From an uncultured Thermotogae bacterium (lineage in GTDB: Bacteria > Thermotogota > Thermotogae > Mesoaciditogales > Mesoaciditogaceae), in NCBI GenBank assembly GCA_913056255.1, contig CAJXLN010000004.1, forward strand, positions 1 to 64,000: a stretch of 64,000 bases of DNA, written 5' to 3'. Shown here one piece after another: positions 2,975 through 54,222 of this stretch. Made by a program: the position numbers and the translations under genes. The notes under the pieces were generated by a model. It did no database searches and was not told the origin of the DNA. It saw nothing but the letters and a program-made list of their open reading frames with translations. Numbering within the stretch: position 1 is the stretch's first letter; every line of letters starts with the position of its first letter.

Positions 2975-3064
2975 TTTCGTGGTTTCATGATCAGGAGCGT
3001 GGAGTTTCTTTATTTTCATAGGTAAATGTGAAAGTGATGTGAATCAAATACACGATATTTGTAT

Positions 3065-3500
3065 TTAGAGCTTATCCTTAAACAAAATAGGAGCGGAGGA
3101 GCCGAGAGAGCGGAGGTGCCAGCGGCACCATCTTTTCCGCTTTCCCGACCAAAGCGATAGCTGCGACCCCGTGGGCACTCGTTACTTCGACATTCCCGAC
3201 CAAGGCGGCAGCCGCGACCCTTTAGCACCATTTTTTCCGCTTCTACGACCAAAGCGATAGCTGCGACTGGAGGCACTCGTCTTTACAGCATTATTGTTTG
3301 AGGAGCCGAGAGTGCCCGTCGGCACTCGTTATTTCGGCTTTTACGACCAAGTCGGTAGACGCGACCGGTAGCCGAGACGTCAGGAGAGTAGAATAAAAAA
3401 ATCTTTGATTTAACGGCAACCAAGAAACGGTAGTTATAAAGTCGAAAACGATAATATTTGAGAGCTAAAGATATCGTGATTATTTAAGGATAAGTTCTAA
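3065..3500. mobile_element. 436-bp MITE-like element with terminal inverted repeats
   Basis: The left end TTAGAGCTTATCCTTAAA (3065-3082) is the inverse complement of the right end TTTAAGGATAAGTTCTAA (3483-3500), with 17 of 18 bases matching. GTAT flanks both sides (3061-3064 and 3501-3504) and may be a target duplication. However, GTAT also follows the copy at 10.6 kb, so it could instead be part of the repeat. The interior has no transposase. It holds five tandem units (3125-3371) and the conserved right-end repeat (3395-3500). This is the architecture of a non-autonomous miniature element. The transposase family that mobilises it is unknown. Confidence 0.75.
3125..3371. repeat. Five tandem ~49-bp GC-rich units inside the MITE
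   Basis: Units run 3125-3174, 3175-3224, 3225-3272, 3273-3321 and 3322-3371. Each begins with GCACC or GCACT. Units 1, 2, 3 and 5 share a core like CGACCAAAGCGATAGC followed by GCGAC. Unit 4 has lost the core and instead carries GAGGAGCCGAGAG, which also occurs just before unit 1 at about 3096. The block looks much richer in G and C than its surroundings. The partly self-complementary core suggests possible RNA or DNA secondary structure. An open frame across it on the minus strand appears to be only a by-product of the repeats. Confidence 0.75.
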
Positions 3501-3501
3501 G
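3395..3501 (+). repeat. Dispersed ~90-bp repeat, copy B
   Basis: This matches copies A, C and D and forms the right end of the 436-bp element. It shares with copy C an extra leftward block (seven A, then TCTTTG, then ACGGCA). The first hairpin seen in the other copies (ACGG-TAG-CCGT) is broken here, because the sequence reads ACGGTAGTTAT. Confidence 0.85.
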
Positions 3502-3514
3502 TATCAAATCACAC

Positions 3515-3554
3515 TTGACAAAATTCCACTCCTCGATGTATACTATTTGTATAC
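3515..3554 (+). promoter_or_regulatory. nagB promoter with GTATAC operator
   Basis: There is a perfect -35 TTGACA (3515-3520), an 18-base spacer and a -10 TATACT (3539-3544). Two GTATAC half-sites (3538-3543 and 3549-3554) sit five bases apart, covering the -10 and the expected start of transcription. Such inverted repeats over the -10 are typical of GntR-family repressors, which commonly control nagB in other bacteria. No regulator gene is adjacent. A good ribosome site, GAGAGG, follows at 3575-3580. Confidence 0.7.
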
Positions 3555-10384: not shown

Positions 10385-10642
10385 AAAAAAATCTTTGTTT
10401 TGACGGCATCCAAGAAACGGTAGCCGTGAAGTCCCAAACGATAATATACTAAACCAACTTTAAAAGTGAAGTCATTTGACTTCAGCAATTGCCTTTCGGT
10501 GTCTGGTCCTCGCTGTGCTGCGGAGGCCACCTGCAAGGCAAGTTTGCTCTCCGTCAAATTTAAATTATATTTCGGATTTTGAAAAAGAGTTAGTATACTT
10601 AAGAGTTAAAGATATCGTGATTATTTAAGGATAGCTTCTAAG
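10385..10642 (+). repeat. Dispersed ~90-bp repeat, copy C, split by an insertion
   Basis: The left half is 10385-10450 and the right half 10594-10642. Together they match copies A, B and D in order, and the break falls inside the GATAATACTTGAG block. The stretch 10312-10384 before it holds no gene. A block CTCCTAATG at 10314-10322 matches the end of the 51266-51650 element, but only over nine bases. Confidence 0.8.
10451..10593. mobile_element. 143-bp hairpin element nested in repeat copy C
   Basis: TATACT occurs on both sides (10445-10450 and 10594-10599), consistent with a 6-base target duplication. The insert folds on itself: ATTTGAC (10474-10480) pairs with GTCAAAT (10553-10559), AGCAA with TTGCT, and TTGCCTT (10489-10495) with AAGGCAA (10535-10541). 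The tip carries GGTCCTC and GAGGCC. A smaller alternative hairpin GAAGTC-ATTT-GACTTC lies at 10468-10483. No coding potential is seen. It could be a palindromic miniature element or a structured RNA gene. Confidence 0.6.
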
Positions 10643-10690
10643 TATCCCCTTAAAAAAATCATGAGATTAAAAAAACATGCCTCGTAGATG

Positions 10691-26605: not shown

Positions 26606-26861
26606 GCTTTTACTTAAACAAAGTGCCCTTTCTCCCAGCTACAGGGACAGTAGACACTTTTACTCTCTTGTTTAATTACATTTTCTTTAGAAATGTAGTT
26701 GTTAATAATTTACCATTAATCTTCGCTATTTGTCAAGCAAAAAAATGACAGTGCAATTCATCTCACCAACTAAAGGCAGCCAAGAGACGGTAGCCGTGAA
26801 GTCGAGAACGACAATACTTGAGAGTTAAAGATATCGTGATTATTTAAGGATAGGTTCTTAG
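26606..26861. repeat. Repeat copy D with a degenerate left terminal repeat
   Basis: Bases 26772-26861 are a full copy of the 90-bp repeat, with both small hairpins intact (ACGG-TAG-CCGT and GTCG-AGAA-CGAC). At 26606-26622, GCTTTTACTTAAACAAA matches the left terminus of the 436-bp element at 14 of 17 bases. The whole may therefore be a second, shorter (about 256-bp) member of the same family that lacks the tandem units. It fills most of the gap between tRNA-Thr and the MFS gene. Confidence 0.65.
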
Positions 26862-26900
26862 TGAACTACCTTTCACTTACTTCGTTGAGGATGGAGACTT

Positions 26901-28240: not shown

Positions 28241-28381
28241 ATGAGCTTCACAAGAGATTATAAACTTATCCCTAAACAAAAAGAAGAAAGAGCCATATTT
28301 GAAAAAATCCGCGAAGTACCCTTCTGTGAGGAGAACGCAGTCAATTTGATCGTGGAGCAAACCAACGTTAGCCGGTCTTGA
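28241..28381 (+). CDS. Possible 46-residue protein, unknown
   Basis: An ATG with AGGAAA just upstream opens a 46-codon frame rich in charged residues (for example KQKEERAIFEKIREV). No family is recognised. Bases 28265-28281 inside it match the left terminus of the 436-bp MITE at 16 of 17 positions (CTTATCC-TAAACAAAA). The frame could therefore be a real small gene, a decayed insertion remnant, or chance. It sits 46 bases after the MFS stop. Confidence 0.3.
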   Translation: MSFTRDYKLIPKQKEERAIFEKIREVPFCEENAVNLIVEQTNVSRS

Positions 28382-53844: not shown

Positions 53845-54222
53845 ATTTTTCCACAGTCAAAAAAGTCTGTATTCATATGGGTTTGTATGAGTTTTCCACA
53901 TTCCTCCAAAAAGTTTTCCACAATCAATTGTGGAAAACTCCGGAAAGCCGCATGAAACTTACAAAAAACGATTGTGGAAAACTTTTTGTCACCTTTTTTC
54001 AGATTTTACAGGGCTTAAGAGATGTTTTTAACGGGACTGGAAAAAAGTTTTCCACATTTTCCACAACGAAAAATTCTTTTCAAAAGTTTTCCACAAGTTT
54101 TCCACAAGTTTTCCACAATCAAAAAAACCATTAACCACGGTGCTTTACATGAGTTTTCCACATTTTCCACAATACCTACTACTACTAAATACTTAAATAC
54201 TTATAGTAATATTAGTAGAAAC
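53845..54222. other. oriC: Probable chromosomal replication origin (oriC)
   Basis: Twelve exact TTTTCCACA boxes, one base from the standard DnaA box TTATCCACA, lie here. On + they start at 53847, 53892, 53914, 54048, 54057, 54087, 54098, 54109, 54154 and 54163; on - they occupy 53929-53937 and 53973-53981. Three are spaced exactly 11 bases apart. The last is followed at about 54173 by TACCTACTACTACTAAATAC and an AT-rich tract, like a DnaA-trio unwinding site. Genes on both sides point away. An AT-rich inverted repeat (AATCAAA and TTTGATT, 53793-53820) lies just outside. No protein gene is credible here. Confidence 0.85.

Follow-up and report, generated by a model that had tools for sequence, protein, structure and literature searches.

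Just upstream of nagB in an uncultured member of the Mesoaciditogaceae lies a short insert whose interior is filled with GC-rich repeats. What kind of element is this insert, and what are the repeats that it carries? The insert belongs to the window, the 64,000-nucleotide stretch of DNA analysed here, which forms part of contig C4 of its own genome, G000 (1.63 Mb in 54 contigs, incomplete at 89%). The preliminary description, made from the letters alone, saw one new MITE family with internal tandem units. We consider it probable that the locus is instead a stacked pair: an IS5-type MITE serves as the carrier, and its cargo is a family of approximately 60-nt double-hairpin elements that insert at hairpin tips.

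Extent, target site and copies of the carrier

The element is real, although its edges are not the positions 3065 and 3500 first proposed. Its terminal arms, TTAGAGCTTATCCTTAAA and TTAGAACTTATCCTTAAA, do match at 17 of 18 bases, as had been described, and an inverted repeat of 24 nt (3062–3085 and 3480–3503) is 88% complementary. In each arm the outer TTA belongs to the target. TTA or TAA directly precedes 35 of the 37 matched ends in G000, against 3.2% of positions as background, and the base before this TWA triplet is nearly always C or T. The target thus reads Y-TWA-R, and the MITE proper, 430 bp on the plus strand and without a transposase, begins with GAGC at 3068 and ends with GTTC at 3497. 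These limits rest on the termini and target site common to the 37 ends and on complete copies elsewhere. The left terminal inverted repeat, GAGCTTATCCTTAAA (3068–3082, plus strand), resembles the 5′ end of an IS in genome G006, and the right one, GAACTTATCCTTAAA (3483–3497, minus strand), resembles the 3′ end. They are flanked by the target triplets TTA (3065–3067) and TAA (3498–3500), which differ by one base; the duplication is not the GTAT suggested earlier. A perfect 3-bp duplication surrounds two of the three complete copies (TTA/TTA on C1 and TAA/TAA on C10), compared with TTA/TAA for the window copy. The right terminal repeat is preceded by a right-end module, GAGAGTAGAATAAAAAAATCTTTG... 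(3385–3482, plus strand), that is common to other copies. The reported lack of a transposase is confirmed: the sole internal ORF of at least 60 aa (86 aa, 3016–3276, minus strand) matched no Pfam family. Rfam likewise gave no match above the gathering score at the window.

The insert recurs in G000, where 54 BLAST matches fall into 40 places if those within 800 bp of each other are taken together. In the examined stretches the termini were matched 37 times, as 18 left and 19 right ends, one place (on C25) being counted in both. Both ends stand on one contig in only three copies, the window copy and those at C1:105666–106280 and C10:16900–17334, which have the same ends as the window copy and different interiors. 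Recurring paired ends and the absence of a transposase of its own bear out the identification as a MITE. Many copies are cut at contig ends, 23 of the 108 contig ends of G000 lying within 250 bp of a match to the MITE, which helps to explain why the assembly fragments. The window itself holds further copies or ends at 6–96, 10385–10646, 26771–26862 and 28262–28276, one of them a left end and three of them right ends. One MITE copy has its right end interrupted by another small repeat, approximately 150 bp long (ACTAAACCAACTTTAAAAG...GAGTTAGTAT; about 10480–10630). Related genera and other parts of the genome carry similar pieces, among them L147 (about 2570–2730) and portions in L193 and L184. 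Among 41 genomes (G000 and 40 relatives), five contain a match to the insert, that in G006 covering the right end only and that in G004 part of a unit only. Interior blocks also occur without MITE ends, on C7 and C8 of G000 and in genomes G001 and G002.

Ancestry of the ends

The family had not been recognised when the insert was first described. Its ancestry can now be traced, as ends and target match those of an IS5-family element of related genomes. A search of the relatives for DDE transposases (PF01609) yielded two loci in G003 in which TAA-GAGCTTATCCGTAAA stands just behind the transposase ORF. The G003 ORF passes the NCBIfam IS5 cut-off (NF033580; 113.1 bits versus 110), and the 3′ end lies 19 bp behind it. 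Ends of the same type, with at most one mismatch, are found at 12 places in G003 and G006. The 5′ end in G006, GAGCTTATCCCTAAACAAA, resembles the MITE left end and runs on into the start of an ORF, of which the 36 aa present matched no family. The MITE left end matches this IS 5′ end over approximately 19 bases. The 3′ end in G006 begins GAACTTATCCTTAAATAATCA; these 21 bases recur unchanged at the window copy's right end. Left thus matches left and right matches right beyond the inverted repeat itself, as predicted for a derivative of that IS.

In G003 and G006 the full-length IS expected to share these ends is represented by pieces from its 5′ and 3′ ends. A complete partner on one contig was not found there, the pieces stopping at contig ends or joining other sequence. 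In one G003 locus (L157:1440–2413) an in-frame fusion links the 3′ part of an IS5-type element to the N-terminal portion of a TnpB gene, through either insertion or an assembly artefact. A relative of the IS5-type transposase occurs in three of 61 genomes searched, with no match in G000 at its 89% completeness, and PF13359 is also without a match in G000. Four DDE_Tnp_1 places in G000 were considered as autonomous copies and rejected, as none has good ends; L166 has one end only, with three mismatches. With its ends, its target and a partner IS in relatives all shown, the carrier is best read as an IS5-type MITE. Most likely the DDE transposase of an IS5-family element moves it in trans into Y-TWA-R targets. 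The subgroup may be the IS1031-like one of ISfinder, with a TNA target.

The insert and the nagB promoter

The neighbouring gene matches PF01182, and the closest relatives retrieved for it, at 75% in a Thermotogae MAG and at 60% in one of Mesoaciditoga, suggest a thermophile of Mesoaciditogales type. As first described, 14 bases separate the end of the insert from the −35 box, TTGACA at 3515. The promoter, TTGACA-18-TATACT (3515–3544, plus strand), lies outside the MITE. A like −35/−10 pair is kept in L031, the closest nagB relative retrieved, with other DNA upstream. The core promoter of nagB is therefore native, and the MITE sits just upstream of it. L031 was considered as an empty site and set aside, since its upstream region differs. 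To judge from position, an effect of the MITE on nagB expression is possible. Elsewhere in the window (54077–54118), a perfect 11-bp tandem repeat, AAGTTTTCCAC, is present in 3.2 copies that may be protein-binding boxes.

Architecture and fold of the internal units

The GC-rich repeated units noted in the interior are present. They are not five equal tandem units of 49 bp: the insert holds two complete double hairpins and three 3′ halves. In a complete unit of approximately 60 nt, hairpin A (12–14 bp) is separated by some 10 nt from hairpin B, whose 3 bp end in a closing C-G pair. The 7-bp stem of hairpin A is followed by a bulge of 5–6 nt on the 3′ side (RT..T), a second stem of 5–7 bp and a loop of 3–4 nt. 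Among 77 distinct contexts the bulge is ATCTTT in 28 and GTCTTT in 13. The loops of hairpin B in these contexts are GGTA (35), GATA (19), GAA (9), GGCA (8), GGAA (3), GTTA (2) and GACA (1), so that only three of 68 tetraloops are of GNRA type and the nine further loops are GAA. The two flanks of hairpin B vary together: of 74 right contexts, 37 combine CAA with GCG and 27 combine YGA with GAG.

In the window copy all units lie on the plus strand. Complete unit 1 (3108–3166; model score 67.9 bits) has hairpin A at 3108–3142 and hairpin B, AGC-GATA-GCT, at 3153–3162. Complete unit 5 (3303–3364; 54.9 bits) has hairpin A at 3303–3340 and hairpin B, GTC-GGTA-GAC, at 3351–3360. Between them are the three partial units, two of which keep hairpin B. 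As read from the sequence, the 3′ half of hairpin A is followed by hairpin B GGC-GGCA-GCC at 3174–3217 (repeat families D1/D2) and by hairpin B AGC-GATA-GCT at 3224–3266 (family D1). The third (3272–3291) is a 3′ half of hairpin A of the ATGCTGG/ACAGCAT type without hairpin B, comparable to complete copies on C38 and C39.

A covariance model built from 11 gap-free units gave 90 matches across the 66 loci searched, some of which overlap. All 16 modelled pairs change on both sides among 79 distinct rows. In these rows 97.7% of cells are paired, against 77.9% in shuffles and 38–53% with slid partners; the alignment was fitted to the model and hence leans towards structure. An independent scan for the geometry across 243,626 bases detected 102 hairpins A with 14 different outer stems, 89 of these hairpins being followed by hairpin B. 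Zero hairpins were found in the reversed sequence and in five one-strand shuffles. The scan accepts paired stems only, so what makes it informative is the empty controls together with the variety of those 14 stems. Under DNA parameters unit 1 takes exactly the shape described; in unit 5 hairpin A does so, and another small stem is preferred at B. The window array as a whole has a z-score of −3.59 as RNA on the plus strand, compared with −1.30 on the minus strand and −1.45 as DNA. Choosing a strand from G-T and A-C mismatches (15 versus 5) was discarded as biased, because the detector accepts G-T.

Distribution, borders and nesting of the units

By the covariance model, three congeneric genomes contain 58 (G000), 44 (G001) and 70 (G002) units, and two further genomes, which represent two other genera, contain eight (G004) and two (G005). 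None was found in the remaining 36 of 41 genomes, five of the same family (G003 and G006–G009) included. Viral contigs gave no exact match to a unit pattern. All the listed units of G004 are on one contig (L231 and L232; G004:C64:90000–132000), and nearly all stand in one conserved frame, in which ..CACAG.CTGGGAGGG precedes the unit and GCAACG.TAGTTG.CGGGGAGGG follows it. Units are rare in long ORFs: only four of 89 lie in ORFs of at least 150 aa, though such ORFs cover 48% of the examined stretches.

Borders are sharp on both sides. At the left, the unit's first base, shared by 77 distinct left contexts, has an information content of 1.65 bits, against 0.26 for the base before it. At the right, the fall comes behind the fourth base that follows hairpin B. 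The hosts are varied. Units stand behind the MITE left end, in a large palindromic repeat, at the apex of a CCTTCC...GGAAGG palindrome, in the G004 frame and in other units; a simple classification assigned no host class to 53 of 89. In G001 and G002 the unit is often 17–21 bp from the CATCAAGACATATGAGCTCGCCATC arm of the large palindromic repeat. This repeat (arms CGAAGTCTTCATCAAGACATATGAGCTCGCCATCTGGAAGTTCACA...) often hosts units in all three congeneric genomes, for example near position 66891 of G000:C5 (L091). In the examined stretches of G002, eight copies of the CCTTCC...GGAAGG palindrome are filled by a unit at the apex and four are empty.

Units are also found within units. When a unit is excised in silico, a parental hairpin is restored across the junction in eight of 89 cases (one in G000 and seven in G002), whereas random excisions of the same length gave a mean of 0.5 and a maximum of 3 in 20 replicates. 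In the clearest nested pair the empty form is ATTGCAC-AGT-GTGCAAT, and the filled form reads ATTGCACAGT, then the unit, then AATG, with a few loop bases replaced. Insertions replace approximately 3–4 loop bases, with no clear target duplication. By reading, some arrays of G002 appear to be three levels deep. The appearance of the window's three partial units suggests rearranged nests whose parents are too damaged for proof. Sharp borders, unrelated hosts, sites at hairpin apices and the comparison of filled with empty sites show that the unit behaves as a discrete insertable element.

Proposed mechanism and alternative explanations

The stages through which such a cargo may spread can be outlined. 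(i) The mobile form of the unit would be folded single-stranded DNA. (ii) This form would insert at the tips of other hairpins, those of its own family included, so that units come to be nested in units. (iii) The enzyme is perhaps a host or lost nuclease of the HUH (Y1) type, which is conjecture. GNRA is the rule for RNA tetraloops. The loops of hairpin B follow the DNA rule of GNA or GNNA instead, and hairpin tips are single-stranded targets; both points are the grounds for proposing the single-stranded form. DNA mini-hairpins are exceptionally stable when two or more G-C pairs carry a GNA or GNNA loop (PMC4686876). The better z-score of the whole window array as RNA counts against a DNA form. 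No enzyme tracks the units: Y1 transposases are found only in G000, where the gene is decayed, and in G002, and none was detected in the unit-bearing G001, G004 and G005. The only Y1 gene found in G000 is a truncated REP-associated tyrosine transposase (L006:1085–1381; G000:C3:62292–62588). No unit lies within approximately 1.5 kb of the RAYT-like gene of G002.

Could the interior be explained without a mobile unit? The original view, a new MITE whose interior is a tandem minisatellite, has become highly improbable. Tandem Repeats Finder does report periods of 49 and 51, and MITEs with internal tandem repeats exist, BrickBuilt among them (PMC4596501). Isolated units, outside MITEs and in other genomes, contradict this view, as do the defined borders, conserved fold and nesting. 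An enzyme-free origin is a more serious contender, if still a doubtful one. Here the arrays and nests would arise between hairpins through gene conversion, template switching or slipped replication, and would spread with their carrier MITEs and repeats. Such events would suit the 3′ unit halves joined head to tail in the window, the perfect tandem copies on C66 of G001, and the few loop bases replaced with no clear duplication of the target. They fit poorly with units of fixed length standing singly in unrelated hosts, in genomes where MITE ends are not found (G002) or hardly found (G001 and G004). The same first base in so many left contexts, and an apex that is empty four times and filled eight times, also speak for discrete insertion.

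Two further explanations give the units another nature or another mover. If the double hairpins were structured RNA, protein-binding or terminator-like, they would be selected on transcripts and copied by recombination or by carriers. The strong compensatory change in the stems, the plus-strand excess of the window array, the resemblance of an inner stem followed by ATCTTT or GTTATT to weak terminators, and the scarcity of units in long ORFs would agree with this. Nevertheless, we judge it unlikely: the sole Rfam match in six unit-rich loci is a tRNA, 65 of 68 tetraloops depart from GNRA, and GAA triloops are present. A consistent gene context was not seen either, and positions in unrelated repeats and in each other's loops are not predicted by an RNA function. 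Mobilization of the units by a RAYT, as REP or REPIN elements, is less probable again. The Y1 transposase of G000 best matches the REP-associated family NF047646, at 37.8 bits and below the cut-off of 80, and approximately 115 bp separate the end of its gene from a hairpin B and MITE right end that lie downstream. REPs inside palindromes and CGTC-tagged REPs in Thermotogae have been reported elsewhere (PMC3733652). The edges of the unit, however, are GAG... and ...GCGA or GAGA, neither a GTAG nor a CGTC tag. It consists of two unlike hairpins in a fixed direct order, rather than the inverted pair that defines REPINs (PMC3116915), and a Y1 gene was undetected in three of the five unit-bearing genomes. 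A RAYT as the general mover was rejected, because its distribution does not follow the units. The stacked pair of MITE carrier and tip-inserting cargo remains the probable reading of the locus.

Comparison with known systems

The carrier resembles IS5-family ISs and MITEs in its GAG/GAA termini, its short duplication of TWA type and the DDE transposase with an NCBIfam IS5 match in relatives. It differs from them in that the interior is an array of unrelated double hairpins with no recognisable IS remnant. The BrickBuilt MITE of Porphyromonas gingivalis is the precedent for repeats inside a bacterial MITE. Like the present element it has internal repeats between leader and tail segments, but these are 23-nt head-to-tail repeats without spacers (PMC4596501). 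Here they are double hairpins of approximately 60 nt, which also occur outside the MITE and nest.

The cargo also shares features with the REP, BIME and REPIN families. These are short, palindromic intergenic repeats that form mosaics, show compensatory changes and possibly use a single-stranded DNA route (PMC3733652, PMC3116915). The units differ in having no GTAG/CGTC edge tag, in pairing two unlike hairpins in direct order, and in that no RAYT correlates with their presence. The open-licence literature yielded no description of a self-nesting double-hairpin repeat in bacteria, in a search that also took in MITEs and REP-like repeats of Thermotogae, the subgroups of IS5 and genome papers on the nearest named genera; this is weak evidence of absence.

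Double-hairpin elements are known from the mitochondria of Allomyces and sponges, where two adjacent hairpins occur in many copies and are presumed mobile (PMC2800124). For the Allomyces elements no flank duplication is reported (PMC2800124). Two adjacent hairpins forming one repeated and dispersed unit are found here as well. Tentatively, and at somewhat less than even confidence, the units may represent a bacterial class of minimal, self-nesting double hairpins of approximately 60 nt, which would move as folded single-stranded DNA, insert precisely at tips and ride on transposase-driven MITEs, as a convergent counterpart of the mitochondrial elements. If so, they would provide a clear bacterial case of a hairpin element targeting another hairpin, and their recursive structures could be read as a record of successive insertions. 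The spread of tiny, gene-less palindromic repeats would then be testable in a defined family with many filled and empty sites. The units differ from the mitochondrial elements in their bacterial chromosomal location, the fixed 5–6-nt bulge of hairpin A, the covariation of stems across many subfamilies and the recursive insertion into their own loops. The stems of the units differ freely in sequence, and there is no sign of shared descent; in working principle the mitochondrial elements are nonetheless the closest system.
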